From Nocardia ninae NBRC 108245 (GTDB taxonomy: Bacteria > Actinomycetota > Actinomycetes > Mycobacteriales > Mycobacteriaceae), in NCBI RefSeq assembly GCF_007990755.1, contig NZ_BJXA01000003.1, forward strand, positions 62,001 to 126,000: DNA of 64,000 bases, in the 5' to 3' direction. Below are positions 30,325 to 60,779 of this stretch, piece after piece. A program made the translations under genes and the position numbers. Position 1 is the first letter of the stretch, and the number at the start of each line of letters is the position of its first letter. Below the pieces are notes generated by a model, which did no database searches, had not been told where the DNA came from, and was given only the letters and a program-made list of their open reading frames with translations.

Positions 30325-30522
30325 CCGGTCCAACCTAGTCGGTTCCATCCGAGAGGACTTGCGCCTACCGGGATTACACGCCGTGCGAGTTTGCAGCGCA
30401 TGCAAACCAGCACGTAATGCACAGTGGCGCAGCGTGAAAGAACGGAGGGTGGGCGGCGGCAACGGCACGCGCGAAACCAGCGCCTACCGCGTCTGCCTCG
30501 CGAAATGCCGTACTGTGCCCGC

Positions 30523-31167
30523 GTGCCGCCATCCGCCCTTCGTGACCGTAAACGCGAACGTACCCGCCGAGCGCTGCTCGAGGCAGCCGTACAGCTGTTC
30601 GAGACGAGAGGCTATGAAGAAACTACGGTGGCCGACATCGCCGCGGTAGCCGATGTCGGGACCCGCACCTTCTTCAACTACTTCGCCAGCAAGGAAGAGC
30701 TACTTTTCCCGGAGACGGACGAGCGCGTGCGGGCCGCGGTGGCTGCGATCGGCAGCAGGCGACCGGGGGAGCGCCCGGTCGAGGTGTTGCTGCGAGCCTT
30801 GCGTGCGGCCGGTGACAACCCTGGCGAGCATCTCGTCGACGATCTGAACGCACGGATCGCCGCGCTGCGCGCGCAAGTGTCGCGCACGGTGCCCTCGGTG
30901 AGTGGTCGGGCCGCGCACGCGCAGCTGGTCGCGCAGCGCGAGATCGCCCGTCAGCTACACGTGGCGTTTCCGGCCGAACTGGACGAGGTCGGGGCCGCGG
31001 CGCTGGTCGGCGCGGTCGTCGGTGCCGTCTCGGGTGCGCTCACCGTGCTGTTCCAGCAGCCGTTGAACGGCGCCGAGGACGGCGAGCGGCTGCACCGGCG
31101 CATCCACGAGACGACCTCGCGGGTGCTCAAGCCGTGGCTCGCCTCCCAGGTCGAAACTCGGGGTTGA
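30523..31167 (+). CDS. TetR-family transcriptional regulator
   Basis: A 214-residue regulator: RDRKRERTRRALLEAAVQLFETRGYEETTVADIAAVADVGTRTFFNYFASKEELLF is a canonical TetR DNA-binding domain (recognition helix TRTFFNYF), followed by a C-terminal helical ligand domain with ALVGAVVGAVSGALTVLF. GTG at 30523 gives the usual short N terminus and sits close behind TACTGT, a possible -10 of a leaderless transcript; ATG at 30505 is the alternative. The last seven codons lie inside repeat array R3. The target gene is unclear. Confidence 0.88.
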   Translation: MPPSALRDRKRERTRRALLEAAVQLFETRGYEETTVADIAAVADVGTRTFFNYFASKEELLFPETDERVRAAVAAIGSRRPGERPVEVLLRALRAAGDNPGEHLVDDLNARIAALRAQVSRTVPSVSGRAAHAQLVAQREIARQLHVAFPAELDEVGAAALVGAVVGAVSGALTVLFQQPLNGAEDGERLHRRIHETTSRVLKPWLASQVETRG

Positions 31168-31328
31168 TCAGCGGGCCGCTGTCGGCCCATCCGGTTGAAA
31201 CCTGGGGGCTGATCAGCCGGGTTCCTGCCAGCCGAACCGGCTGAAGGCGGGGGTTGATCAGCCGGGTTGCTGCCCGCCGACCCGGTTGAAACCTTGGGCT
31301 GCTCAACCGAACTGCTGCCACCCCAACC
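31149..31328. repeat. Tandem array R3, four units of about 45 bp
   Basis: Four head-to-tail units (31149-31192, 31193-31238, 31239-31283, 31284-31328), each starting GGTTGAAACC or close, then GGGGTTGATCAGCCGGG, a GCTGCC core and CCGAACC. Unit 1 overlaps the 3' end of the TetR gene and unit 4 the 3' end of the convergent TauE gene. The TGATCA in the unit reads as a stop on either strand: TetR stops at TGA in unit 1 and TauE at the corresponding TCA of unit 4. Confidence 0.8.
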
Positions 31329-32100
31329 GGATCACCATCCCGACGACCACCACCAGCAGCACGACGCGAACGAACTTCGCGCCGTTGCGCAACGCCATGT
31401 GCGAGCCGACGATCGCGCCCGCCACATTGCCGACCGCCATGGCCGCGCCGAGTGCCCACAGGATGTTGCCGGTGGCGCCGAAGAAGATCAGCGCGCCGAC
31501 ATTGGAACCGCAGTTGATCACCTTCGCCATCGCGGCGGCCCGGACGAACTCGGTGCCGAGCAGGGTGGCGAAGGTGATGATGAGGAAGGTGCCGGTGCCG
31601 GGACCGAGCAGGCCGTCGTAGAGGCCGACCAGGCCGGCGGCCAGCGCGATGGTGAGGATGAACTTGCGGCGCGTCGGCGGGTGCGTGGCGAGGGTGACAC
31701 CGATCGACGGGCGCAGCGTGACGAACACGGCGACGGCGACGAGCACCACCATCACGATGGGGATGAACAGCTCACGGTCGATCAGTGACACCGCGGCGGC
31801 GCCGATAGCTGCGGTGACCGCGGCGATCACGGCCGCGGGCAGGAGCACTCGCCAGCGCAACGGCACTTTCCTGGCGAAGGTCACCACCGAGGCGCCGGTG
31901 CCCGCGACCGCCGCCAGCTTGTTGGTGCCGAGCGCAGTTTGCGGTGTGATGGTCGGCGCGACCAGGAACAGCGTCGGCAGGATGATCAGTCCGCCGCCAC
32001 CGACTACCGCATCCACCCAGCCCGCGGCCGTCGCTGCCGTCAAAAGAACTGCCCAATCACCGATCTGCACGTCGGTGAGCCAACCAGATCGGATATCCAA
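31303..32100 (-). CDS. TauE/SafE-family sulfite exporter-like permease
   Basis: A 265-residue membrane protein with about eight hydrophobic segments. AAGWVDAVVGGGGLIILPTLFLVAPTITPQTALGTNKLAAVAGT and the second-half repeat AGLVGLYDGLLGPGTGTFLIITFATLLGTEFVRAAAMAKVINCGSNVGAL are the two TauE inverted-repeat signatures. The family exports sulfite, sulfoacetate or related anions. The start is uncertain: TTG at 32100 keeps the long N terminus, GTG at 32070 is also possible. Its C terminus (GWQQFG) is encoded within the last unit of array R3. Confidence 0.9.
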   Translation of the reverse strand: MDIRSGWLTDVQIGDWAVLLTAATAAGWVDAVVGGGGLIILPTLFLVAPTITPQTALGTNKLAAVAGTGASVVTFARKVPLRWRVLLPAAVIAAVTAAIGAAAVSLIDRELFIPIVMVVLVAVAVFVTLRPSIGVTLATHPPTRRKFILTIALAAGLVGLYDGLLGPGTGTFLIITFATLLGTEFVRAAAMAKVINCGSNVGALIFFGATGNILWALGAAMAVGNVAGAIVGSHMALRNGAKFVRVVLLVVVVGMVIRLGWQQFG

Positions 32101-40287: not shown

Positions 40288-40647
40288 CCGGGCCGAATAC
40301 AGACCGAACACTCGGTATTTTCTGTGGCAGCTGTAGCCATATTGTGATGTAGCGCATCATTCGCCGAAACCGGTGGGGTACGCGGCCGTTTTCTTGTCGC
40401 GTCACCTATCTTCCTGGCCTTTTTCCGAGGCGCGTGCCCCAATCGCCCGGTTCGCGAGGATGTAGCTAGTCAAAGTCACGGTGTGCCAACGGCGTTGGAT
40501 GTGAAACAAATCCAACACGGCGGCAATCCGCCCGTTCCGACGCTCCGAATCATCTGTCGTGGATCCCGTCCATGATCGGCGCCTGCGCGCCGGTCGTGCG
40601 GCGGTTGCTAGGGGAGTTGCGTCAACAGAGGCAGAACGGAGTGATTG
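40288..40647. other. Upstream region of the NRPS gene
   Basis: A 360-bp gap without a supported gene. It should contain the promoter of the NRPS-exporter cassette. It is AT-richer than its surroundings in 40310-40400 and ends with a good GGAG ribosome binding site (40638-40641). No strong palindrome or hairpin was found. Confidence 0.5.
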
Positions 40648-43600
40648 ATGAGTTCATTGGCCACGGACCGCGTCGACCAATGTTCATCCGGCGAATTTTC
40701 GGCACAACCGTTCGCTTTGTCGCCGGCGCAAACGGCGCTCTGGTACGCGCAGCGGATCCGCCCGGATGTGCCGCTGACCATCGCCCAGTATGTGGAGATC
40801 CACGGTGACCTGGATGTCGGGCGGCTGCTCTACGCGATCGAGCGCTTCGGCGCCGAGACTCAGGTCGGCCAGATACGGCTGCTGGAGATCGATGGCATCC
40901 CGCATCAGCGCGTCGACAACACCCGCCGCCCCGGCTGGGCCCGGCTGGACCTGCGCGCCGAGGCCGATCCGAAGGCGGCGGCGCTGCGCTGGATGAACGA
41001 GCACGCCAGCTCGCCGATCGATCTGGAGCACGATCCGCTCACCACCAATGTGGTGCTGCGGACCGGAGATTCGGACTACATCTGGTACGCCCGTGCCCAT
41101 CACATCGTGATCGACGGCTACGGCGCGATGAACGCGCTCACCCGCACCGCCGAGATCTACACCGCGGTGGAGAACCACACCGAGCCGGTGGCCTCGCGGG
41201 CCACCCCGCTGGTCGAGATGTACGCCGACGAACTGCGCTACCGCGATTCCAGCCGGTTCCGCGCCGACCGGGACTACTGGCTCGAGCAGCTGGCGGGCGC
41301 GGGCGAGCCGATGAGCCTCAGCGGCGCCACCGTCACCGCCGCGACGCACGAGGCGGGCAGGCGCACCGCCACCGGTGTGCTCGACGACCGGTGCCAGTCC
41401 GCGATGAACGAGGCGACCGCCGCCTTCGGCACTGCCAACTCGGCACTGTTCGTCGCCGCGCTCGGCACCTATGTGCGGTCGGTGACCGGCAATCCGGATG
41501 TGGTGCTGAGCCTGCCGGTCTCCGCGCGCACCACCGTGTCGCTGCGGCGCTCGGCCGGTGTGGTGTCCAATGTGGTGCCGATCCGGCTGAAGTTCACCGC
41601 CGACACCACCGTCGCCGACGTGGTGAAGGCCACCGAACTGCAGATCACCGGCGCGTTGAGACATCAGCGCTACCGCCACGACGACATCCGCCGCGACTGC
41701 GGCTACTCCCGCGACGCGCGCGGCTTCTTCGGCCCGATGGTCAACATCATGTTGTTCCACAACGAGCTGAAATTCGGCAGCCTGGTCGGCTCGCTGAATG
41801 TGCTGGCCACCGGCCCGGTCGAGGACCTGTCGATCAACCTGTACAACGGCGTCGGCAACCGCATCCACGTCGACTTCGAGGCCAACGCGCGGCTCTACAG
41901 CGAGACCGAGGTGGCCACCCACCACGACCGCTACCTCGATTTCCTCACCCGCTTCCTCACCGCCGCGCCGGACACCCGCGCGGAGACGCTCACCGCGATC
42001 ACCGCGGCCGAACGCAGCCGGGTCCTCGCCGACTGGAACGCCACCGAGACCCCGCCGCACCTCGGCACGCTCGCGAGCCTGTTCGCCGAGCGGGCCGTGA
42101 GCTGCCCCGACGCCGTCGCCCTCGAATTCGGCGACGAGACAGTTACTTACGCCCAGCTCGACGACCGCGCCAACCGGCTGGCCCGGCTGCTGATCACCCG
42201 CGGCGCGGGCCCGGAGACGTCGGTCGCGCTGTGCCTGCGGCGCAGCATCGAACTCGTCGTCGGCATGTACGCGATCGTCAAGTCCGGCGCGGCCTACCTG
42301 CCGCTGGACCCCGAGCACCCGGCCGAGCGCATCGAGCAGATCGTGCGCCAGGCCGCACCGGTCTGCGTGCTCACCGCGGACCGTGACGCGCTGGCCCTGT
42401 CCGTGGGCAGCCTCGCCATCGACGCGGTCGACCTGTCGGGCTTCGACGGTGCCCCGATCACCGACGCGGACCGCATCGCCGCCCTGCGGGCCGACCACCT
42501 CGCCTACGTCATCTTCACCTCCGGGTCGACCGGAAAACCCAAGGGCGTCGGCGTAACCCACGCCGCGATCGTCAACCGGTTGCGCTGGATGCAGCACGAG
42601 TACCCGCTCGACCACACCGATGCGGTATTGCAGAAGACCCCGGCGACTTTCGACGTCTCGGTGTGGGAGTTCTTCTGGCCCTTGCAGGTCGGCGCGCGGC
42701 TCGTCGTCGCCGAGCACGACGGGCACCGGGACCCCGGCTATCTGGCCCGGCTCATCACCGAAAAGCACATCACCACAGCGCATTTCGTGCCGTCCATGCT
42801 GTCGGTGTTCGTCACCGACACCGATGTGCGCGGCTGCACGGCGCTGCGTCAGGTGTTCTGTAGCGGCGAGGCGCTGCCCGCCGCGACGGTCCGCGACTTC
42901 TACGCCGCGCTGCGTTCGCACACACCGCACGCTGCCGACCCCAAACACCATCCCGCGCTGCACAACCTCTACGGCCCGACCGAAGCCGCGGTCGACGTCA
43001 CCTACTGGCCCTGCCCGGCCGACCCGGCGAGCGTGCCGATCGGTTCGCCCGTCTGGAACACCCAGACCTACGTGCTGGACGCCCGGCTGCGGCCGGTGCC
43101 GCCCGGCGTCGTCGGCGAGCTGTATCTGGCCGGCGTGCAGCTGGCCCGCGGCTACCTCGGCCAGCCACGCCTCACCGCCGACCGCTTCGTGGCCAACCCG
43201 TTCACCCCGGGCGCCCGGATGTATCGCACTGGCGACCTGGCCCGCTGGCAGCTCTCGGCCGAGCGCCCCGGAGTGCTGGAGTACATGGGCCGCAGCGACT
43301 TCCAGGTGAAGATCCGCGGCTTGCGCATCGAACTCGGCGAGATCGAGGCGGCGCTGCTGGCCGACGACCGGGTGGCCAGGGCGGTCTGCGTGGCACATAC
43401 CGGGCGCAACGGCGACGAACTGGTCGCCTACGTCGTCGCGACCCCGGACGCCGAGGAGTATCGCCCGCCGACCCCGTCGGCCAGCGCACCGCATCCGGTG
43501 TCCCGGATCGACACGGCCGCGCTGCTGACCGCGCTGCGTCGCACCCTGCCCGCGTACATGGTGCCGTCCGCGCTGATGGAGCTCGACGAGCTGCCGCTCA

Positions 43601-46600
43601 GTGCCAACGGCAAGATCGACCGCAAGGCGCTGCCCGCCCCCGTGGTGGGCTCGCGCTCGGCAAGCAGGTCGACCGCCGAGCCGCGCACCGAGGTGGAGCG
43701 GGTACTCGCGGGCATCTTCGCCGAAGTGCTGGGCACCGACGACTTCGGTGTCGAGGACAGCTTCTTCGACCTCGGCGGCAACTCGCTGATCGCGGCCCGC
43801 GCGGTGGCCAGGATCAATGCCGCGCTCGGCACCGGTCTCACCATCCGCGACCTGTTCGAGGCCTCGACCATCGCCGCGCTCACCGAGTGCTTCGCCACGC
43901 ACACCACCGACGTCGCCTCGCCGAAACTGGTTGCGGGCGAACGGCCGGAACGGATTCCGCTGTCGCTCGCCCAGCAGCGCCTGTGGATCCTGAACCGGTT
44001 CGCCGAACACGCAGCGGCATACAACATGCCGTTGGCCGTCCGGATCGAGGGCGCCCTCGACGTCGACGCATTGCGCGCCGCGCTGATCGACGTGATCGAA
44101 CGGCACGAGAGCCTGCGCACCACCTTCCCGGAGGCCGCCGACGGACCGTGCCAGCTGATCCATCCGGCCGCCGAGATCCCGCTCACGCTCGACCCGATCG
44201 ACGCCACCGGCGCCGACGTCGCGGCGCTGGCCACCGAGTTCGCCGGCTACGGTTTCGATCTGCGCATCCAGGCGCCGATCCGGGTGGCGCTCTACACCAC
44301 CGGGCCGGACCAGTGGGTGTTTCTCCTTGTGCTGCACCACATCTGCGGTGACGGCTGGTCGATCGCGCCGCTGGCCCGGGATCTGATGACCGCGGTCTCG
44401 GCGCGTACCGAGGGTGCCGCGCCGAAGTGGACACCGCTGCCGGTGCAGTACGCCGATTTCGCGCTGTGGCAGCGCGAACTGCTCGGCAACGAGGCCGATC
44501 CGGCCAGTGCGCTGAGTGCCCAACTGACCCACTGGCGTTCGGCGCTGGCCGGGCTGCCGGACCAGCTCGACCTGCCGCTGGACCGCCCGCGCCCGCTGCG
44601 TCGCTCCACCACCGGCGCCCGGGTCGAGTTCACCATCGCCCCGGAGATCCGGCGCGCCGCAGGCGAACTCGCGGCCTCCCGCGGCGTGAGCATGTTCATG
44701 GTGCTGCACGCCGCGCTGGCGACGCTGCTTTCCCGGCTGTGCGCGAGCACCGACATCGCCATCGGCACACCGATCGCGGGCCGCTCCGATCCGGCGCTCG
44801 ACGAGCTGGTCGGCATGTTCGTCAACACGCTGGTACTGCGCACCGAGGTGGACCCCGCCGCCGGCTTCGACCGCATGCTCGACGTGGTGCGCGAGGCCGA
44901 CCTCAACGCCTTCGCCAACGCCGACGTGCCGTTCGAGCGGCTGGTCGAGGTCGTCAACCCGGAACGCTCCGCCGCCAGGCATCCCCTGTTCCAGGTGATG
45001 CTGTCCTACGACCGCGCACCAGACCTGCGCGTAGAGCTGTCCGGCCTGCGCGCCGAGGTACTGCCCATCGTCTCCGACATCGCCAAGTTCGACCTGCAAC
45101 TGGTGGTGCACGACGACATCTCCGACGGGCCGCTCACCGCCGAATTCGGTTATGCCACCGATATTTTCGACAAGTCGACGGTCGAGTCCTTCGCCCGCCG
45201 CTTCGTCGCCGTACTCAACGCGGTGGTCGCGGCACCTAGCCTGCCGATCGGCGACCTGACCATCCTGGACCGTCGCGAACTGGCCAACCTGGTGCCGATC
45301 GCGGGCTCGCCCGCCGAGCCGTTCAGCACGCTGGCCCAGCTGCTCACCGACACCGCCGAACGGCTGCCGGACGCGGTGGCGGTGCGCTACCTCGGCACCG
45401 ACACCACCTACCGCGAGCTCGACGAGACGTCGAACACGCTGGCGCGCGCCCTGATCGAGCACGGCGCGGGCCCCGAGGTGGTCGTCGCGATCGCGCTGCC
45501 ACGCGGCTTGGACGCCATCACCGCGGTGTGGGCCGTCGCGAAAACCGGTGCGGCCTATGTGCCGATCGATCCGGGCTACCCCGGCGAGCGGATCGCGCAC
45601 ATGATCAGCGACTCCGGCGCCATGCTGGGCTTGACCGACGCGAAATGCCTTGCGGCCATGCCCGAATGGCCCGCGCCGCGCGGTAAGCACCGCAAGCACT
45701 CGGTCGATTGGCTGGTGCTCGGCTCCGCGGAGCTGGCCGAAGAATCGCTGAACTACACCAGCGCGCCGATCACCGACGCCGACCGGCATCTTCCGCTGTG
45801 CACGGTGCATCCGGCGTACCTGATCTACACCTCGGGCTCGACCGGCACGCCGAAGGCCGTGGTGATCACTCACGCCGGGCTCGCCTCGCTGGCGAACGAG
45901 CAGATGCATCTGTTCGGCGTCTCGGATTCGGCACGGACACTGCACTTCTCGTCGCCGAGCTTCGACGCGTCGGTGTTGGAGCTGCTGCTCGGGTTCGCCG
46001 CGGGCGCGACCATCGTCGTCGCCCCGGCCGACCTGTACGGCGGCACCGAGCTCGCGGCGTTCCTGCGGGCGGAACGGGTCACCCACGCCTTCATCACCCC
46101 CGCGGCGCTGGCCACCGTGCCCACCGAGGGCCTCGAAGAGCTCGAAGCGGTCATCGTCGGCGGCGAGGCGTGCGCCGAGGAACTGGTGGAGACCTGGTCG
46201 GTCGAGCACCGCATGCACAACATGTACGGGCCGTCCGAGGCGACCGTCGCGGCCACCGCGACCGGGCCGCTGGTGCCGGGACGCCCGGTGCCGCTGGGCA
46301 GGCCGATCCGCGGCATGCGGTTGTTCGTGCTGGACGGGCGGCTGCACCCGGTGCCGCCGGGGACGCCGGGCGAGCTGTACCTGTCCGGCCCCGGCCTGGC
46401 GCGCGGCTACCACGGCCGCTACAGCCTGACCGCGCAACGCTTCCCGGCCAACCCGCACGGCAGGCGGGGCGAGCGCATGTACCGCACCGGCGACCTGGTG
46501 GTCGTCGAGCCGGGCGGGCAGCTGCGCTTCCTCGGCCGCGCCGACGACCAGATCAAGATCCGCGGCTTCCGCATCGAGCTGCGCGAGATCGACCATGTGC

Positions 46601-49600
46601 TGCGCGCCCATCCCGGGGTGAGTTTCGCGCTCACCGTGGTGCACACCGACGAGCAGGGCCAGCCGCGGCTCGCGTCGTACGTGACCGCGGACGAGCCGGT
46701 GACGGCGGCGGAGGTGGTCGAGACCGCGCGCCAGCGGTTGCCCGGATACATGGTGCCCGCCTCGGTCACCGTGCTGGACGAGCTGCCGGTCACCCCGGCG
46801 GGCAAGCTGGACCGAAAGGCGTTCCCGGAGCCCGTTTTCGCCGCCATCGGCTCCTCCCGTGCACCGAGCACGGAGCTGGAGTTGCGTGTCGCGGCGGTGT
46901 TCGGCGACATCCTCGGCCGCCCGGTCACCGGCGCGGAGGACAGCTTCTTCGACGTCGGCGGTAACTCGCTGCTGGCCACCCGGCTCGCCGCGGCACTGCA
47001 CGCGGAGTTCGGGGTCGACCTGCCGGTGCGGGCGATCTTCGAGGCGCCGACCGTCGCGGGCGTCGCCGAGCGGCTCACGGAAGCGCCCCGGACGCAGCGG
47101 TTGGCGCTGGCTGTGCAGACCACGCGTCCGGGACGCATTCCATTGTCGCTGCCGCAGCAGCGACTGTGGTTCCTCAATCGATATTCTCCCGAATCGAGCG
47201 CATATAACATCGCTTTCGTTATCCGAATCTCCGGCGATCTGGATGTGCCCGCGCTGCGTGCGGCGCTCACCGACCTGGTGGAGCGGCACGAGGTGCTGCG
47301 CACGGTGTTCCCGGAGGACAACGGCGGGGCGCAGCAGTCGGTGCTGCCGACCGCTCGCGCGCTGCCGACGGTCGAGCCGATCGACACCGACGACGCCGGC
47401 GCGGTGGCCGCGTTGCGCACCCTCGCGCACACCGGCTTCGATCTCGTCCGCGACACCCCGCTGCGAACGACATTGCTGCGCACCGGCTCCGAGCGCTACC
47501 TGCTCGGCATCGTGGTGCATCACATCGCCGCCGACGGCTGGTCGCTCGGCCCGCTGACCAGGGACCTGGCCGCCGCGTACGTGGCAAGACACGAGGGCTC
47601 CGCCCCCGGCTGGGCGCCACTTCCGGTGCAGTACGCCGACTTCGGGCTGTGGCAGCGCGCCTGCCTCGGCGACGAGAACGACCCGGGCAGCCTCGCAGGC
47701 AACCAACTCGAGTACTGGCGGACCGCGCTGGCCGACCTGCCTGCGGAACTGCCGCTGCCCTACGACCGCCCGCGGCCCGCGGAGCCGACTCAGCAGGCGG
47801 GCGCGGTGAAATTCACCGTGCCGGAACCGGTTCAGCACGCCCTCGCCGAACTGGGCAGGGATCAGGGCGTCAGCATGTTCATGGTGCTGCGCTCGGCACT
47901 CGCCGTGTTGCTGCGCGCGGTGACCGGCGGCCGCGACATCGTGATCGGCACGCCGGTCGCGGGCCGCACCGACACCAAACTCGACGAGTTGGTCGGCATG
48001 TTCGTGAATACGCTGGTGCTGCGCTCCGATGTCGATCCGGACCGCACGTTCGCCGGCCTGCTGCGCGCCGATCGGGACACCGAGCTGGCCGCGATGGCGC
48101 ACGCCGACATTCCGTTCGAGCGCATCGTGGAGGAGTTGGGCGGGGAGACACGCAGTTCCGGGCGGCACCCACTGTTCCAGGTGGCGCTGAGCGTGCAGGA
48201 CGGACCCGTCCCGACGTTGGAGTTGCCCGGTCTCGCACTGCGCGCCGAGGAACTCGACATCGCGCTGGCCAAGTTCGACCTGGAGTTGCGGGTCGCCCAC
48301 ATCGGCTGTGACGCGGGGCCCGGCGAGCCCGGACAGGCCTTCGAATTCGTCTACGCCGCAGAGCTGTTCGACGAATCGACGATCCACACGCTGGCCGACC
48401 GGTTCCTGCGGGTGCTCGCGGCGGTCACCGCCGATCCGCGCGTCCTGGTGCGCGACATCGACACTCGCACCGAGCGGGAACGGCGCCTGTTCGCACCGGC
48501 GACCGGCGGCGCGACCATGCCGCAGTGCACGCTGCCCGCGTACTTCACGGCGACCGCGCACATGCACCCGCATCGCACCGCCCTGCGGTCGGGCACCACC
48601 ACGCTGACCTACGCCGAGGTGGACCGCCGCTCGAACCGGTTGGCGCGTGCTCTCATCGCGCGGGACATCGGCTCGGGTGACCGGGTCGCGCTCGGGCTCA
48701 CCCGCTCGATCGAGTCGGTTCTCACCGTGCTCGCGGTGGTCAAGACCGGCGCCGCGTTCGTACCGGTCGACCCGACCTACCCGACGGACCGGATCCGGCA
48801 CATGCTCACCGACGCGGGCTGCTGGGTCGGCGTTACCGTCGCCGCGCATGCCGAGCAGCTGCACGCGGCCGCCTCGGAAGGCCCGGTGACCGACTGGGTG
48901 CTGCTGGACGATCCCGACTTCGCCGCCGAACTGGACAGCCACGACGACGCGCTGGTCGACGACCTCGACCGGTTGTGCACCATCGAGGTGGACGATCTGG
49001 CCTACCTGATCTACACCTCCGGTTCGACCGGAAAGCCCAAGGGCGTCGCGGTCACCCACGCGGGGCTGTCCAATTTCGCGGACGAGCTGCGCGACCGGAT
49101 GCGGGTCGACCGCGAATCGCGCACGCTGCACTTCTCCTCGCCCAGCTTCGACGCAGCGGTGCTGGACCTGCTGCTCGCGGTGGGTTCCGGTGCGGCCATG
49201 GTGATCTGCCCGCCCGGGATCTACGGCGGCGACGAGCTGGCCGCGCTGCTGGAACGGGAGCGGATCACGCACACCTTCCTGACCCCGGCCGCGCTGTCCA
49301 CCATCGACCGGGACCGCTGGCCGCTGCCGCAGCTGCGTGCGCTGATGGTCGGCGGGGAGGCGTGCTCGCCCGATCTGGTTGCGCGCTGGGCGCCGGGCCG
49401 GGCCATGCTCAACGGTTACGGGCCGACCGAGATGACGGTGGTCGCGAGCATCGCGTCGCTGACCGCCGACCGGCCCGTCACCATCGGCACGCTGGTCCGC
49501 GGGGCGCGGGCGCTGGTCCTCGACGAGCGGCTGCGTCCGGTGCCGGTGGGCGTGCCCGGCGACCTGTACCTCGGTGGGCACGGCGTGGCCCGTGGTTACT

Positions 49601-52600
49601 TCGACCGATTCGGGCTCACCGCAACGCGTTTCGTCGCCGACCCGTTCGGCCCGGCCGGCGCGCGGATCTACCGCACCGGTGACGTGGTGCGCTGGAACAA
49701 CGCGGGCGAGCTCTACTATCTCGGCCGCAGCGATCATCAGGTGAAGGTGCGCGGTTTCCGTATCGAGCTCGGCGAGATCACCGCCGCGCTCGGCGAGCAT
49801 CCCGGCGTGCGGTTCGCGCACACCGAGGTGCGGCAGATCGCGGGCGTGGATCGGATCGTGTCGTTCGTGCAGCCCTCCGACGAGCACTCAGGTGTGGATG
49901 TGGAGGCGGTGCGCGCCCATGTGGGCGCGCTGTTGCCGTCGCACATGGTGCCTGCGAGTATCACTGTGCTGGAACACATCCCGCTGACCCCGGTGGGCAA
50001 GCTGGATACCGCCGCGCTGCCCGAACCCCGGCTCGTCGCGGACGTCGCGTCGCGTGCGCCGGAGACCGCATCGGAGCTGCTGGTCGCCGAGGTGATGGCG
50101 GAGCTGGTCGGCGTCGACGCGGTGCACGCCGACGACAGCTTCTTCGACATCGGCGGAAACTCGCTGCTGGCAACGCAACTCGTCGCCCGGCTGGCCGCGG
50201 CGACGAACATCCGGCTCGAGGTGCGCACCGTGTTCGCCGCGCCACGGGTGGCCGAGCTGGCGGCACTGCTCGACTCGGGTCCCGGTGGCGCGGAGGCGCG
50301 CCCGGCCTTGGTGCGTTGCCATCGTCCCGAGCGGATTCCGTTGTCGGCGGCGCAGCGTCGGCTGTGGTTCCTGAACCGGTTCAACGGATCCGGTGAGGCG
50401 GCCGAGCAGACGGCGGGCGCGTACAACGTGCCGGTCGTGCTGCGGATGAACGGCAAGCTCGACGTGGACGCGTTGGTCATGGCGCTGCACGCGGTGCAGG
50501 CCAGGCACGAGACGCTGCGCACCGTGTTCCCCGAGACCAACGGCGAACCGGCCCAGCAGGTGCTCGATCTGGCCGCCGCCGCGATCACGCTGTTCGTCGC
50601 GACGGTTACCCCGGGCGAGGTCGACGATGCCGTACGTCGTTTCGCCGCACCGGGATTCGACCTGGCGGGCATGGTGCCGATGCGGGCCGCGCTGATCTCG
50701 GTGTCGCCCTACGGTGACACCGGCGTGCAGAACCCGGCCGAGGTGTCCGACGAGCACGTGCTCGTGCTGGTGGTGCACCACATCGCGATTGACGGCTGGT
50801 CGCTCGAGCCGCTGGCGCTCGATGTGGCGACCGCCTACCGGGCGGCCTGCGCGGGGCGGACACCCGAGTGGACCGAGCTCACGGTGCAGTACGCGGATTA
50901 CACACTGTGGCAACAGGATGCGCTCGGTGCCGAGCATGATCCCGGCTCGGTGCTGAGCCGCCAGCTCGACTACTGGCGGCGCACCCTGGACGGCAGCCCA
51001 GAGCTGTTGACCGTGCCCGCGGACCGGCGGCGCCCGCCGGTGCCGTCCTACCGAGGCGGGCTGGTCGAATGCGCGGTCGACGCGAACCTGCACCGGGCGC
51101 TGCGGACCGTGGCGACCAGCAACAACGTCAGCATGTTCATGGTGCTGCACGCCGCGCTCGCGGTGCTGCTGCACCGGATGACGGCCAGCGACGACATCAC
51201 CGTCGGCACGCCCATCGCCGGGCGCGGGCACCCCGCGCTGGACGGGCTGATCGGCATGTTCGTCAACACGCTGGTGCTGCGCACCCGGATCGATCCGGAT
51301 GCCAGGTTCACCGATCTGCTGCACACCGTCCGCGACACCGATCTCGATGCGTTCGCGCACGCCGACGTGCCGTTCGAGCGGCTGGTCGAGGTGCTGAATC
51401 CGGCCCGGTCCCAGGCGCATCACCCGTTGTTCCAGGTGATGCTCTCGGTGCAGAACCGGCCGGTGCGCGGGCTCGACCTGCCCGATCTGCGGATCGAGGC
51501 GGCCGATGTGGATACCGGTATCGCGAAGTTCGATCTGCAGTTCACGCTCACCGAAACGCAGACGCCGGAACGGGATCCGGCGGGCATCGCGCTGTCGGTG
51601 AACTACGCGAGCGATCTGTTCGACGAACAGACGGCATTGCGGCTCGGCAAGCGGCTCACCAGGTTGCTCGCCGCGGTCGCCGCGAATCCGACTACGGCCG
51701 TCGGTGATCTGGAGCTGCTGGATCCCGCCGAATGGTCCGGGCTCGCCCCGGTCCGCGGTGCGGAGCCGGACCGGCCGATCACCTTCCCGGAGGTGTTCGA
51801 GGCGGCGGTGAACGTCGACCGCACGGCGATCGCGTTGCGCGCCGAGGACACTCAGGTGAGCTACGACGCGCTCGATCGATGGACGAACCGGTTGGCTCGG
51901 GTGCTCATCCGGCAGGGTGTCGGGCCGGAAACACTGGTGGCGCTGGGTATTCCGCGATCGGTCGAGTCGGTGGCCACCGTGCTCGCGGTGGCCAAGGCGG
52001 GTGCCGCGTTCGTGCCCGTCGACCCGCTGTACCCGGCACACCGGATCGAGCACATGCTGTCGGATTCCGGTGCGCGACTGGGCATCACGCTCGGTGACTA
52101 CCGGGAAGAGCTGCCCGACGGTGTGGAGTGGATCGTGCTGGACGACGCGCACTTCCGCGGGGTCGTGCTCGACACGGCGGATGCGCCGATCACCGCGGCG
52201 GAGCGCATTGCGCCGCTGCGGGTGGACAATCCGGCGTACGTGATCTACACGTCCGGTTCCACCGGGACCCCGAAGGGGGTGGTGGTCACCCACGGTGGGC
52301 TGTCCAACTTCGCCGCCGAGACCGCGCAACGGTTCGAGGTCCAACCGGGTTGCCGCGTACTGCATTTCGCGACGCCGAGCTTCGACGCGGCGATGCTGGA
52401 TCTGCTGTTCGCGCTCGGCGGCGCGGCCACGCTGGTGATCACACCGCCCGGTGTGGTCGGCGGGGAAGACCTGGCCAGGGTGTTCATCGAGGAGGCGATC
52501 ACGCACGCCTTCATCACCACCTCGGCGCTGGGCACGGTGGACCCGACCGGGGTCACCTCGCTGCGGCACGTGCTGGTCGGCGGCGAGGCGTTGCCGCCGG

Positions 52601-54468
52601 ACCTTGTGACGCGATGGGCGCCGAACCGCAACCTGTACAACGTGTACGGGCCCACCGAGACGACCATCGTCACGGTGATCGGGCAGCCGTTGACGCCGGG
52701 CGGGCCGATCACCATAGGTGGTCCGATCCGCGGGGTCAATGCGGCGATCCTGGACACGCGTTTGCATCCGGCCCCGGTCGGCGTCACCGGCGAGTTGCAT
52801 CTGGCCGGTGCCGCGCTGGCGCGTGGCTACCTGAATCGGCCGGGGCTCACGGCGCAGCGGTTCGTCGCGAATCCCTATGGCAAGCCGGGGGAGCGGATGT
52901 ATCGGACCGGCGATCTCGTGCGCTGGTGCGCCGGGCAAGCCTCGCTGTCGGCGGGGCGCAGCACGGGCTCGGGCCGGGAGATCGAGTATGTCGGCCGCAC
53001 CGATCATCAGGTCAAGATCCGCGGTTTCCGGATCGAACTCGGCGAGATCGACGCGGCGCTGGCGCGGCACGGGGCGGTGGAGTTCGCCACCACCATCGGG
53101 CATCGCACGCCCGCGGGTACCACCGCGCTGGTGTCGTATGTCAAGGCGCGCAACGGTGTCGAGGTGACGGCGGTCGAGCTCACCGACCACGTCGCCGGGC
53201 TGGTGCCGAATTACATGGTGCCGCAATCGATCATGCTGCTCGACGAGGTACCGCTCAGCCCGGTCGGCAAGCTGGACCGGAAAGCGTTGCCGGAACCGGT
53301 GTTCACCGCCGCCGAGGGGTACCGGGCACCGGCCACGCCGACAGAGGTCGCGCTGTGTGCGGCGTTCGCGGCGGTGCTCGGTTTGGAAGTGGTGGGCGCC
53401 GACGACGGATTCTTCGAGCTCGGCGGCAACTCGCTGCTGGCCACCAAAGTTGTTGCGCAGGTGCGGGCGAACGGCCTGGATCTGCCGGTGCAGTTGATGT
53501 TCGGCGAGGCGACTCCGGCGGCGATCGCCGCGCGTCTCGACGGTTCGGGTGCGGGTATCGCGGCGGCACTGGGGCCGGTGTTGCCGATCCGGCCGACCGG
53601 CACTGCGGCACCGCTGTTCTGCATCCACCCCGCGATCGGGCTGTCCTGGTGCTACTCGGGGCTGCTCGCGCACCTCGGGCCGGACCGTCCGGTGTACGGG
53701 TTGCAGGCGCCGCACGTCGCGGGCGAGGACGGGTTCGCCTCGATCGCCGAGGCCGCGGGACAGTATGTGGCACATATCAAGTCGATCCAGCCGACCGGGC
53801 CCTACCACCTGCTCGGCTGGTCGCTCGGCGGCCTCATCGCGCACGAAGTGGCGGTGCGGTTGCAGGAGTCCGGTGACCAGGTCGCGCTGCTGTCGATGAT
53901 GGACAGCTACCGGCTCTCCGACGCCTGGCTCGAACACGCGATCCCGAGCGTGGCCGAGATCATCGAGGAGTTCGGCAGCGATCAGCTCGACACACCGATC
54001 GATCCGGCAATGAACCTGCGCGACGCGGCGGAGCTGCTGCGTACGCGGCCGGGACCGTTCGCGGCGCTCACCGTCGAGCATCTCGAACGGCTCTACGCGG
54101 GTTACACCAACGGCACTCTGCTCGCGCACAGCTTCCGGCCCCGCGTCTTCGACGGCGACCTGCTGTTCTTCTCCGCCGCCGCGGACGAGATCAACCGGGC
54201 CGACCCGGAGCGCCGCGCTCTCGCTTGGCAGCCGTTCGTTACCGGCGACGTCCACGATCACGAACTCCCGTGCAGGCATTCGGCGATGACCGCACCCGAA
54301 TCGCTCGCCGCGATCGGCCCGGTGCTGCGGCGCCGGCTGGACGGCGAGCCCGAGCACCCGTCCGCCAACGGGTTGCATCCGGTCAACGGGGACGCGAAGC
54401 GGGGCAAGAACGGCTCACGATCCGAGAAACCTGCCATCGGGATCCGAAAGAAGGAGAAGCAAAGGTGA
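40648..54468 (+). CDS. Four-module nonribosomal peptide synthetase with thioesterase
   Basis: A 4,606-residue synthetase, C-A-T-C-A-T-C-A-T-C-A-T-TE. Condensation motifs HHxxxDG start at residues 151, 1230, 2291 and 3377, all intact. Adenylation A3 loops (YTSGSTG-type) lie near 623, 1727, 2789 and 3867. Carrier serines (GGNSL) are 1046, 2107, 3172 and 4262; the thioesterase serine is 4392 (GWSLGG). Pocket residues read DVWHFSLVDK for A1, the known serine code, and DALFIGMVAK, DALFMGGVVK, DALFLGVIVK for A2-A4, which I cannot match to one amino acid but which look non-polar. No epimerase, methyltransferase or cyclisation domain. The N-terminal C domain resembles EntF-type starters, so an acyl or aryl cap on Ser1 is likely. 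Predicted product: acyl-Ser-X-X-X. ATG at 40648 follows GGAG. Confidence 0.95.
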
Positions 54469-55573: not shown

Positions 55574-56418
55574 CTGCGGTGGTCGATACCCCGAAAATGC
55601 CAGCGGTGCAGCTCGATTCGGGGCCGCGGCTGCGGATCTTCCGGGACAGCGCGATCGTCGCCTACCGCAATCTGCTGACCATCCTGCGGGTGCCGACGTT
55701 GCTGGTGACCGCGACGATCCAGCCGCTGATGTTCGTGTTCCTGTTCGCCTATATCTTCGGGGCATCGCTGGGCGGCAGTCAGTACCGCGAGTTCCTGCTC
55801 GCTGGAATCTTCACGCAGACAGTCGCTTTCAATGCGGCGTTCACCACCGTCGGGCTGGCGGGTGACTTGCAGAAGGGCATCATCGATCGGATGCGGACGC
55901 TGCCGATGTCGCGGCTGGCCGTGCTGATGGGTCGCACGCTGTCCGACCTGGTCGTCAATGTGCTCAGCGTCGCGGTGATGGTCGGGTGCGGTTACGTGGT
56001 CGGTTGGCGGATCAACGGCGGAATCGCCGACGCCGCACTGGCTTTCGGCGTGATTCTGCTGTTCGCCTTCGCCATGTCCTGGGTCGGCGCACTCACCGGT
56101 CTGCTGTCACCCACCGTCGAAGTAGCGCAGAGCGCAGGCCTGATCTGGCTGTTCCCCCTGTCTTTCATCTCCTCGGCCTTCATCTCCGCCGAGACCCTCC
56201 CCGGCCCGCTGCGCACGATCGCGGAATGGAACCCGATCACCGCGGTCTCAGCCGCAGGCCGCAAACTCTTCGACAACGACGCACCCCCCACCTTCGCCCC
56301 CGCAACCGGCTGGGCCGCGGATCATTGCGTCGGTTACGCGATCGGCTGTTCTGTTGCCATCCTCGCGGTAGCGGTCCCGCTGGCATTGCTCCGCTACCGG
56401 AAGGTGGCTAGCCGCTAA
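55570..56418 (+). CDS. ABC-2 type permease, DrrB-like
   Basis: A 282-residue integral membrane protein with about six hydrophobic segments (LLVTATIQPLMFVFLFAYIFG; LVVNVLSVAVMVGCGYVVG; LAFGVILLFAFAMSWVGAL; VAQSAGLIWLFPLSFISSAFI; final VGYAIGCSVAILAVAVPLALL). LQKGIIDRMRTLPMSRLAVL and AETLPGPLRTIAEWNPITAV are typical of DrrB/ABC-2 permeases. GTG at 55570 overlaps the ATPase stop as GTGA. The last five codons and stop (VASR-stop) are already in the repeat array R4, so the C terminus is probably repeat-derived. Confidence 0.95.
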   Translation: MTAVVDTPKMPAVQLDSGPRLRIFRDSAIVAYRNLLTILRVPTLLVTATIQPLMFVFLFAYIFGASLGGSQYREFLLAGIFTQTVAFNAAFTTVGLAGDLQKGIIDRMRTLPMSRLAVLMGRTLSDLVVNVLSVAVMVGCGYVVGWRINGGIADAALAFGVILLFAFAMSWVGALTGLLSPTVEVAQSAGLIWLFPLSFISSAFISAETLPGPLRTIAEWNPITAVSAAGRKLFDNDAPPTFAPATGWAADHCVGYAIGCSVAILAVAVPLALLRYRKVASR

Positions 56419-56875
56419 GTCTCTGGAGGACGGCTGGCGGCTGAGTCCGGAGGGTGGCTGGCGGCTGAGTCTGGAGTGGTCGGTGGCTAGGACCGGAGGT
56501 GGCCGGGCCGCTGGGGCCGGAGGTGGCCAGGCTGCTTGGATCGGAAGGTGGTCGGCCGCTGAGCCTGGAGGTGGCCAGGCTGCTAGGTCGGGAGGTGGGT
56601 CGGCCGCTTGAGCCCGGAAGGTGGCCGGCCGCTTGAGCCGGGAGGTGGCCGGCCGCTGAGTCCGAAGTTGGTCGGCGGCTACGACCCAGAGGGGCCAGGC
56701 TGCTTGGATCGGAAGGTGGCTGGCCGCTGAGCCTGGAGGTGGCCAGGCTGCTAGGTCGGGAGGTGGGTCGGCCGCTGAGCCCGAACGTGGTCGGCGGCTA
56801 GGGCCGGAGGTGGCTGGCCGCTGAGTCCGGAGGGCGGCTGGCCGATGAGTCTGCAGGCGGCCAGCCGTTAGGTCC
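56400..56875. repeat. Tandem array R4, about 19 units of 24 bp
   Basis: Degenerate 24-bp units like GGAGGTGGCTGGCCGCTGAG fill the whole gap between the convergent permease and hydrolase genes. An 84-bp block at 56525-56608 recurs at 56693-56776 with about two differences, displaced by 168 bp (seven units), so there was a recent higher-order duplication. The array starts within the permease stop region and ends across the hydrolase stop (TTA at 56868-56870, in CCAGCCGTTAGGTCCGG), both matching the unit. Confidence 0.8.
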
Positions 56876-57797: not shown

Positions 57798-58332
57798 CTG
57801 CGCCCCCCCAAATTTGTTTATCCAGTTTTCCGTCATGCTGAAGGACCAAGTACCCCGCCCGCTCCTGATCGAATCCTTGTCAGCCCAGTGCCTTCAGCGA
57901 AGGTGCGCCTACCCGATAGGTGCTGACAAAGTCTCCCCAGGTGAGCGGTCCATTGAGCTGAAGACCTAGCCAGGTTTTCCCGTGAGTAGTGCTGGGCGCG
58001 TCGGGTGCCGTACCCGGCTTACCTCCGCGGTCAGGTGCGTCGTGGCTGGTTCCAGCGTGGTCATCTGGTTGTGGTTGCGTTTCGGGCGGTCCTGGTGGGG
58101 TGAGAGTGTTGGTGGGGGAGGGTATTCAGAGCATGCACACCGTTCGCAAGTGGTAGACGGTCTGTGAGAGGTGCGCACGGTCTACGGAATCGCCCAGCGC
58201 TGGCGGGGCGCGGTGGTTGCCAGCAAGATCCGCACTAGCTCTCGGGATCCGCACCGACTACGGGGGTCCCAAGTGGGTGCGGATCCAGAGAGAGGCTGCG
58301 GATTTCGCTGGCAGCGGCCCGCTTTCGTGGTC
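57798..58332. other. Gene-free stretch upstream of the hydrolase
   Basis: About 530 bp with no supported reading frame or RNA. It should contain the hydrolase promoter on the minus strand. Several frames open here but lack codon bias and ribosome binding sites. Confidence 0.5.
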
Positions 58333-58500
58333 GACGGGACATGAGGGCGGGAAGCGCGAGTCAGCACGCCATAACGTCCCACTCGAGGCCGGGCCGATCA
58401 CCCAGCGGGACATAGGGGTCGGAAAACGCGAGTAAGTCCACCGTGACGTCCCACTCGGCACCCAGCTGCTCACCCAGCGGGACATAGCGGCGGCGAGCCG
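58333..58500. repeat. Direct repeat of about 73 bp, 2.3 copies
   Basis: The order GCGGGACAT, GCGAGT, ACGTCCCACTCG, CACCCAGCG appears from 58334, again from 58407, and starts a third time near 58480. ACGTCCCACTCG is exact at 58374 and 58446. Within each unit GGGAC and GTCCC can pair. No gene. Confidence 0.6.
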
Positions 58501-58563
58501 CGCGCTCTGGTGCCACTGAGTTCGGTTGATCAGGAACGGAGCGCCAGGGAGGGGGTATGCGAA

Positions 58564-58595
58564 AGGCCGCCTACATCTTTCGATGTAGGCGGCCT
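58564..58595. terminator. Perfect 14-bp-stem hairpin
   Basis: AGGCCGCCTACATC-TTTC-GATGTAGGCGGCCT, a 14-bp perfect stem with a tetraloop, in a gene-free region at the edge of array R5. It could terminate minus-strand transcription of rbpA, whose stop is about 430 bp away on that strand, but the distance makes this uncertain. Confidence 0.5.
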
Positions 58596-59020
58596 CTTCG
58601 TTTACCGAATCTTTCGGCCTACAAGGCCTTTCGGTCAACCAACCTTCCGGCCTGGCGGTAGAACCTTCGACCTGTAGGTGGCCTTTCAGTTACCAACCTT
58701 ATGGCCCGGCAGCGGGTTTTCCGGGCGGTAGGCGGCCATTTCGGTTCACCTACGTCCTGGCCTGGTGGTGAATCCTTCCGGCCCGCAAGGCATTGGGTCT
58801 ATCAACCTTCCGGCCGGGCGTTGGAACCTGCTGGCCCGCAAGATCTTGGGTTTACCAACCTTCCGGCCGGGCGTTGGAACCTGCTGGCCCGCAAGGGCCT
58901 GCTGGGTCTATCAACCTTCCCGGCTGGCGTTGGAACCTCCTGGCCTGCAAGGCCCTTCGGTTAACCAACCTCCCGACCTGAGAGCGAAAACCTTCCGCCC
59001 CGCAGGCGACCCGGCGGAAA
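58596..59020. repeat. Tandem array R5, about 53-57-bp units
   Basis: Seven or eight degenerate copies of a unit whose clearest forms are at about 58814-58866 and 58867-58920: GGCCGGGCGTTGGAACC, TGCTGGCCCGCAAG, then GGGTTTACCAACCTTCC. The copies become more eroded toward rbpA, and the sequence around the rbpA stop still resembles a unit. There are no unique spacers and repeats vary in length, so not CRISPR. Confidence 0.7.
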
Positions 59021-59627: not shown

Positions 59628-59972
59628 GTGTGTTCCATCTCTGATCGTCGTCACTCTCGCCAACTGTCCTGCCTGTGGTGTGGGCGAGAGATCGTGGAGT
59701 CGGAGGCCGGGCGTCGCCGCCGGTACTGCCGTCAGTCCTGTCGTCAACGTGCCTACGAACACCGCAACAGCCTCAAGGGCACCGGGATCCCCGACGATTC
59801 CGTCGTCCTGAGCGCCCAAGAGGCCGCCGATCTGGCCGACCGCTGGTTCGCCGCCCGCTGCGCCGCCGAAGACGTCGCCATCGCCATCGAAGAGAACGCC
59901 AGCCCCGAAGAACTGGCAACCCTAGGCAAAACCCTCCTCGAACTAACCCGCGACGCCGAGCGGTTGCGCTGA
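59628..59972 (+). CDS. Small zinc-finger-like protein
   Basis: A 114-residue protein. CLWCGREIVESEAGRRRRYCRQSCRQRAYEHR has a CxxC and CxxxC pair about 15 residues apart, the pattern of a small treble-clef zinc finger; the rest (about 55-114) is helical and acidic. Homologues adjacent to rbpA are familiar in actinobacteria, but the role is unknown. GTG at 59628 is the likely start. The last six codons and stop (DAERLR-stop) form the first unit of array R6: the following 27-bp unit encodes DAERLR-stop again. Confidence 0.78.
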   Translation: MCSISDRRHSRQLSCLWCGREIVESEAGRRRRYCRQSCRQRAYEHRNSLKGTGIPDDSVVLSAQEAADLADRWFAARCAAEDVAIAIEENASPEELATLGKTLLELTRDAERLR

Positions 59973-60640
59973 CCCGCCGACGCCGAACGCCTGCGCTGAC
60001 CTGCCGACGAAGGTAATGCTGGCTGCCCGCCGAAAGCCGGTGCTGACCTGCAACGGCGAGCGCTGCGTTGACCGGCGTGACCGAAAGGCGGTGCTGGTCG
60101 GCCACGGAAAGCCCGTGCTGACTGCGCCGGCGAGCGCCTGATTGATTGGTGACGGCGCGCGTCAACCGTTGACAGCGAGCGCCTGTTCGAGCGGGGGCGA
60201 CGCTGAACGGTTGCGTTGAGCGGCGCTGCGCTGCCAAGTGCAGTGCTGGCCGGCCGCCAAAATCTCGCGCTGACCTGCGACGGCGAGCGCCGTCGGTGGA
60301 CTGGCCGCGTTGCGTGCCGACCGTTGACAGCGAGCGCCTGTTCGAACGAGCGACGTTGACCGGCGCCGTTTAGGGCAGTGCTGTCCGATCCGCCGAATTG
60401 CCCGTGCTGACCTGCGACGGCGAGCGCCTGCAATTGACTGGTGACGGCGCACGCCGATTATCGACAGCGAGCGTCAGTTCGAACGGGGCGGCGCTGAACG
60501 CGTGCGTTGGGCGCCGTCGCCGAAGGGCAGTGCTGCTCGGCTGCGGACAGCGCGGTGCTGACCTGCAATGGTGGGCGCCTGTGTTGACGCGCAACGCCGA
60601 ACGCCTGCGCTGACCTGCGGCGGGCTGGGCCCGCCCGCAA
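59952..60640. repeat. Tandem array R6 with 27-bp and larger units
   Basis: The array begins inside the 3' end of the zinc-finger-like gene: 59952-59978 and 59979-60005 are two 27-bp units with three differences, each containing GCTGACC with the TGA stop. Beyond this, blocks such as TGACCTGCGACGGCGAGCGC (60269-60289, 60407-60427) and TTGACAGCGAGCGCCTGTTC (60169, 60324, degraded at 60460) recur at about 137-155-bp spacing, so larger superunits were duplicated. No gene is supported in the 800-bp gap to 60779. Confidence 0.72.
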
Positions 60641-60674
60641 CGCGACGCCCACGTCGACCGGACCCGCATCGCTG

Positions 60675-60744
60675 ACTTGACGTAAGTTCCGTGCTCTTGA
60701 CTGCTGTTGCAGCATGCGTCAAGAGCACGGAACTTTCGTCAAGT
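60675..60744. repeat. 70-bp near-perfect inverted repeat
   Basis: Arms of 27 bases at 60675-60701 and 60718-60744 are complementary with a single mismatch (T at 60683 against T at 60736). The 16-bp centre itself holds TGCTG-TTG-CAGCA. Both arms contain TTCCGTGCTCTTGAC or its complement. It lies between the convergent zinc-finger-like and membrane-protein genes, 36 bp from the stop of the latter. It could be a bidirectional terminator, a structured RNA or a palindromic mobile repeat. Confidence 0.85.
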
Positions 60745-60779
60745 GGGATGGCTCGGCTTTAGGTCGAACCGCCGGTCGG

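Follow-up and report, generated by a model that had tools for sequence, protein, structure and literature searches.

A young minisatellite probably seeded by the touching ends of convergent TetR- and TauE-family genes in Nocardia ninae

Convergent genes can end in stop codons that touch or overlap, in arrangements of the CTAG or TGATCA type. Such touching stops appear to be the ancestral state of the TetR/TauE gene pair considered here, where that junction itself has become the unit of a tandem repeat. The pair lies in a stretch of 64,000 nucleotides from Nocardia ninae NBRC 108245 (contig NZ_BJXA01000003.1, positions 62,001 to 126,000), referred to below as the window, and all positions are those of the window unless stated otherwise. 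The repeat array between the two genes resembles bacterial minisatellites, or VNTRs, in its tandem units of tens of base pairs, its lineage-specific gain and its fast change, and differs from them in that its unit is a former junction of convergent genes, with both stops inside.

The nearest described case that was found is ETR-F/VNTR3239, between rnc and fpg1 of the Mycobacterium tuberculosis complex, in which a spacer of direct repeats, 279-358 bp long, occupies a place where other mycobacteria have only a few base pairs (PMC2734929). The rnc and fpg1 genes are stop-to-start neighbours, however, whereas TetR and TauE meet stop to stop, and the passages that describe the locus do not say that its unit derives from gene ends (PMC2734929). 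The MIRUs of mycobacteria are repeat units of 40-100 bp that lie between genes, and M. tuberculosis H37Rv has them at 41 dispersed places (PMC2734929, PMC4213456). The TetR/TauE unit, in contrast, was found at one place, with the reservation that single diverged units could escape the search, and is local in origin. The tandem repeats of Borgs may begin inside the end of an open reading frame, but their units are perfect and A-rich, whereas those at TetR/TauE are diverged, G+C-rich, bacterial and located at convergent ends (PMC9879509). A literature search, in the portions of the sources that it returned, gave no recognised description of the amplification of a stop-to-stop junction or of such junctions as repeat seeds.

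The array was first pointed out in a reading of the sequence alone, which described four 45-bp tandem units at 31149-31328. Tandem Repeats Finder (TRF) recovers the four units (31149-31330, period 45, 4.0 copies, score 168), although they are diverged and range from 44 to 46 bp rather than being exactly 45 bp throughout (Table 1). An alternative 90-bp TRF reading covers 31160-31330 with a score of 221; when 30900-31600 was shuffled 300 times with its dinucleotides preserved, the top score was 51. The TetR stop, TGA, occupies 31165-31167, at positions 17-19 of unit 1, and the TauE stop, which reads TCA on the plus strand, occupies 31303-31305, at positions 20-22 of unit 4. Both fall within the TGATCA position of their unit. 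As had been noted from the letters, every unit carries this hexamer or a derivative of it: it is intact in units 1-3 and reads TGCTCA in unit 4, which keeps the TauE stop only. By its anatomy, the array is a bacterial minisatellite.

Table 1. The TetR/TauE junction, the four units of its array and two further cases in the window.
Feature	Position	Strand or content	Basis
TetR-family regulator gene, convergent partner A	30424..31167	+	ORF; PF00440 E 8.5e-16; 78 distinct relatives have an ortholog opposite TauE
TauE/SafE-family exporter gene, convergent partner B	31303..32100	-	ORF; PF01925 E 3.5e-40
Unit 1, 44 bp	31149..31192	Left: TetR 3' end, coding; right: decayed copy of TauE 3' end	35/44 match to the N. 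suismassiliense junction
Unit 2, 46 bp	31193..31238	Non-coding copy of the whole junction, TGATCA intact	36/45 match to the N. suismassiliense junction
Unit 3, 45 bp	31239..31283	Non-coding copy of the whole junction, TGATCA intact	32/45 match to the N. suismassiliense junction
Unit 4, 45 bp	31284..31328	Left: decayed copy of TetR 3' end; right: TauE 3' end, coding; core TGCTCA	40/45 match to the N. suismassiliense junction
Second case, 24-bp unit in about 19 copies	56397..56867	ABC2_membrane last codons to Abhydrolase_3 stop	TRF, Pfam
Third case, 27-bp units	59946..60009	Copies of the 3' end of a small plus-strand gene: last codons with stop (59970-59972)	TRF

The gene pair was compared at 138 TauE loci, drawn from genome collections that hold one genome per species; 114 of these loci have both genes, and 78 of the 114 are distinct. 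At the other 24 (L013-L015, L017, L019, L022, L030, L044, L065, L068-L070 and others, including four Rhodococcus loci and that of N. carnea) no TetR neighbour is recognisable in the DNA compared. The four-unit array is absent from all 78 distinct Nocardia relatives that have TetR and TauE. Their spacers measure 0 bp in 24 cases, 1-30 bp in 40 and more than 30 bp in six, with the genes overlapping in the remaining eight, and the TauE protein ends in WQQFG in 66 of them and in WQQFA in nine. A single relative, N. sp. CC227C (L088), has a TRF array at the junction. Its unit is a different one of 17 bp, and the 17-bp duplication holds the TauE stop; the array starts 2 bp before that stop and so does not count as stop-crossing in the survey of loci around TauE described below.

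In a quick two-protein tree with SH-aLRT support, the source sequence is nested in the N. brasiliensis clade. Of the ten other members of this clade that were compared, nine have a spacer of 0 bp, and the tenth (L133) has one of 1 bp. The closest named relative of the source genome is N. suismassiliense, and in strain S-137 of this sister species (G156/L032), whose TetR and TauE orthologs are 99.2% and 99.6% identical, there is one junction with its stops touching, TGA followed by TCA, and a 0-bp spacer. The 45-bp junction of N. suismassiliense is the repeat unit of the array, which is a 135-bp insertion relative to that species in the genome alignment; the copy number is thus four in one genome and one in the other. 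Because the single-copy junction of the relatives is the unit, the gene ends gave the repeat its sequence. By this comparison, the gene ends predate the array and were copied into it.

The sequence-only reading had drawn the opposite conclusion, namely that the repeat supplies the stop codons of both genes and that the C termini ETRG and WQQFG are partly encoded by it. These C termini do lie within the outer units, but relatives share them without an array, and the repeat is not their source. N. suismassiliense has both stops in a single junction, and it has ETRG and WQQFG on either side of a 0-bp spacer; orthologs with the same C termini and no repeats are what that reading had itself named as speaking against it. 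The observation was real, but its causal direction was reversed.

It might be thought that a dispersed or mobile repeat element, similar to a MIRU or REP, was inserted between the genes and happened to provide their stops. Tandem units of 44-46 bp between genes do resemble MIRUs, and the core of the unit is palindromic. However, when the 301 bp of 31100-31400 were used as a query against the source genome, a 9.70 Mb draft, one matching place was obtained (DNA search, E <= 0.001; 40 of 150 candidates were scored, and a single diverged unit could escape). Relatives, moreover, hold exactly one unit, as coding sequence of TetR and TauE, and at other junctions the arrays are built of different units, which match the gene ends found there. 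An inserted element is rejected for the TetR/TauE array on the ground that its unit is the single-copy junction of the relatives, and we regard this origin as highly improbable.

The preferred reading, to which we assign a probability of roughly 0.85 on comparative grounds, is that the array is a young, lineage-specific minisatellite seeded by the touching ends of TetR and TauE. The ancestor would have had the arrangement seen in relatives, with the two genes tail to tail, their stops touching and no spacer between them. A 45-bp piece straddling both stops would then have been tandemly duplicated and amplified to four copies, as the comparison with those relatives indicates. The likeliest route would be slipped-strand or template-switch copying, with GG microhomologies at a distance of 45 bp from each other. 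The GG-to-GG distance in the N. suismassiliense junction is indeed 45 bp, which is the unit length; this arrangement is as expected for slippage or template switching and is weak evidence for it, 2 bp being too short for proof. The outermost half-units, under coding selection, continue to end both proteins, and the inner sequence, once freed, diverged quickly. The outcome would be that a tight 0-bp junction has turned into a 135-bp spacer, which carries spare stops and could form hairpins. Tandem copying across a tail-to-tail junction, over any length, keeps both reading frames whole, because the first copy still terminates gene A and the last one gene B. It follows, as a matter of logic, that stop-to-stop junctions tolerate tandem duplication, and this tolerance fits the recurrence of such duplication at some other convergent ends of the clade. 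The simplest account of the array requires no function.

The age of the array is complicated by the divergence of its copies. Free array positions differ from the N. suismassiliense junction at 33 of 134 sites (25%). Between the window and N. suismassiliense, 10.0% of third codon positions and 7.3% of intergenic DNA are different; at 10% divergence, 13 differing free positions would be expected instead of the 33 observed (P 4e-6). The fastest spacers in the window are two at 21.5% difference, one of which is itself an array. The copies are less clean than a plain recent duplication should leave them, so one has to suppose that they diverged faster or that the array is older: either the mutation rate was raised at the birth or during the evolution of the copies, or the array is older than the species split and was lost elsewhere. 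In the second case the array would have been present in the clade ancestor, and the sister species would have lost it by deletion between the outer units, which would explain why the units have diverged beyond the third-position rate since the split from N. suismassiliense. However, this history needs a clean loss, back to 0-1 bp, in each of the ten other clade members, and units 1 and 4 are alike at only 30 of 44 positions, which is poor for recombination. An old array is thus improbable. An artefact of assembly or sequencing is the least credible explanation of all: the genome is a draft of 204 contigs, but the units are so clearly distinct from one another that short reads resolve them, and the flanking sequence, taken in steps of 100 bp to a distance of about 1 kb on either side, aligns with N. 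suismassiliense at 93-100%.

It may also be that selection keeps the array as a bidirectional terminator or insulator, in which case the hairpins would matter and the copies would be functional. The array folds somewhat more strongly than its shuffles (z -2.5 on the plus strand and -2.2 on the minus strand), and some Nocardia spacers at the TetR/TauE or FabH/SIMPL junction contain hairpin-like sequence when read by eye. Free TGATCA bases are kept at 17 of 18 positions, compared to 84 of 116 elsewhere in the free sequence (p=0.03), although this test is marginal and was chosen after the units were seen. Against such a function, relatives have 0-bp junctions without any array, and the copies diverge fast. 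A scan of 30900-31700 on both strands, which covers terminators of the U-run type (a G+C-rich hairpin followed by a U run), gave 0 sites, and a U-tract terminator is rejected for that interval. Retention of the array by selection is thus unlikely, and its putative role as a bidirectional terminator or as a region of spare stops is possible.

Two further junctions of the window parallel the preferred reading, that gene ends seeded the array. The 24-bp array at 56.4 kb separates the ABC2_membrane stop (56416-56418) from the Abhydrolase_3 stop (56868-56870, minus strand). The spacer at this junction (L186-L188) is 449 bp here, 534 bp in N. suismassiliense, which shares the 24-bp array, and -4 bp in N. 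colli, which has one copy with the stops overlapping at CTAA. On both sides of the overlapping N. colli stops the sequence CCGGA occurs, exactly 24 bp apart, a distance equal to the unit. The 24-bp array is a clearer case of direct-repeat-bounded duplication than the TetR/TauE array. In the third case, further degenerate copies are visible by eye in the spacer beyond the stop at 59972, and this spacer measures 807 bp, compared to 392 bp in N. suismassiliense and -9 bp in N. colli. The small gene concerned has a low coding score (22) and no Pfam match, but there are close orthologs in both of these species, 100% and 97% identical. Six convergent junctions with changed length were read, and the one at 59972 is the only one that clearly repeats a gene end. 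Among the other five, one contains a dispersed palindrome, two are N. suismassiliense arrays untraced to a gene end, and two are without a TRF array.

Several other features of these regions were observed. A palindromic stretch that starts CTTGACGTA and has an inner GCATGC-like core is found in the convergent spacers at 59973-60779 and, elsewhere in the source genome, at G000:C3 136936-137228 (L149). One N. suismassiliense spacer contains several copies, and the palindrome looks like a dispersed hairpin element. A 72-bp repeat region (58335-58572, 57897-58571) has inverted copies, 74-83% similar, elsewhere in the homologous region of N. suismassiliense and looks like a dispersed family, unlike the TetR/TauE array. 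Within 57837-59020, where no gene was called, there is also a 53-bp array of 3.2-3.6 copies (58780-58975). At 40645-54468 a plus-strand frame of 4607 amino acids is present, the first 667 of which match Condensation and AMP-binding; facing it on the minus strand are open frames of 3067 and 1496 amino acids, and 666 amino acids of the latter are without a Pfam match.

Outside the window, the FabH/SIMPL junction was compared in the best-matching 30 of the 144 genomes with a match, 11 from the N. brasiliensis clade and 19 other Nocardia. Stop-crossing arrays, whose units measure 24, 17 and 22-23 bp, occur in five of the 11 clade genomes and in none of the 19 others; a sixth clade genome (L292) has 19-bp units in the spacer. 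The differing unit lengths point to independent births. In N. colli, a 16-bp array read in the sequence runs across the stop of an L262-type gene, where the source genome has 47-bp units.

The sequence-only reading had proposed a test of whether arrays are enriched at convergent gene ends. Junctions of 30-1000 bp were scored in samples of 800 kb from the source genome, the window excluded, and of 1200 kb from N. suismassiliense, the homologous region excluded; genes were called by a simple custom caller. Arrays that cross a stop were found at 6 of 187 convergent and 2 of 659 co-directional junctions (p=0.002; per stop p=0.03), figures to be read with the caution that the two samples may share orthologous junctions and that two of the six convergent cases rest on weak gene calls (gene A of L163, score 13, and gene B of L263, score 16). 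The excess stems mostly from the source genome, with 4/70 convergent and 0/278 co-directional junctions; in the N. suismassiliense sample, with 2/117 and 2/381, it is small. Arrays mostly within spacers are not enriched at convergent junctions (9/187 compared to 26/659 co-directional). An enrichment is thus supported in part, for arrays that cross stops, but a plain enrichment of arrays in convergent spacers is rejected.

A test for copies of gene 3' ends gave a similar picture. In the source genome it was positive at 3 of 70 convergent junctions and at none of the 278 co-directional ones (p=0.008); it was not significant in N. suismassiliense (3/117 compared to 5/381, p=0.28) and reached 6/187 compared to 5/659 when pooled (p=0.018). 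In the homologous region of N. suismassiliense, the 3'-end copy with the highest score (61) is at a co-directional junction. In the named loci around TauE, stop-crossing TRF arrays were found at 0 of 10 convergent junctions in the clade and 0 of 55 others. Spacer lengths also change more often at convergent junctions: between the sister genomes, changes of at least 60 bp affect 11 of 31 convergent spacers and 23 of 146 other junctions (p=0.015), and relative to N. colli the counts are 7 of 14 and 16 of 69 (p=0.047), in a comparison that omits pairs without adjacent orthologs and includes the window. At two loci, 13 non-coding arrays occur in 14.4 kb from the clade and seven in 70.1 kb from other species, but related species are counted here as independent and one of the loci was chosen for its arrays. 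Broad samples hold 2.8 arrays per 10 kb of non-coding DNA in the source genome, 2.4 in N. suismassiliense and 5.3 in N. colli. That the clade is richer in non-coding arrays should be taken as no more than a lead.

The reading of convergent gene ends as places where fast minisatellites repeatedly start is thus well shown at the TetR/TauE locus, is supported at the two neighbouring window junctions and at FabH/SIMPL, and is suggestive as a process common to the N. brasiliensis clade; convergent cases are few, and three are in a window chosen for its repeats. Tentatively, and with somewhat more doubt than confidence, it may be proposed that a lineage-specific process in this clade repeatedly turns tail-to-tail junctions into long, fast-diverging minisatellites, copying the gene ends together with their stops and converting overlapping ends into spacers of 100-800 bp, perhaps through error-prone repair or copying where transcription meets head-on. 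The array had initially been taken for an unfamiliar class of element that both ends and separates convergent genes. No new class is called for; a recurrent process of fast-evolving minisatellites takes its place.

An odd array thereby becomes a mutation for which the ancestral state can be given base by base. With copies that diverge fast and several cases in one clade, it becomes possible to test whether the birth of an array is mutagenic, and why this clade is affected. The general idea is a simple one, that new intergenic DNA can start at a stop-to-stop junction and leave both proteins intact. If the process is true of the whole clade, it would let compact genomes gain new intergenic DNA.
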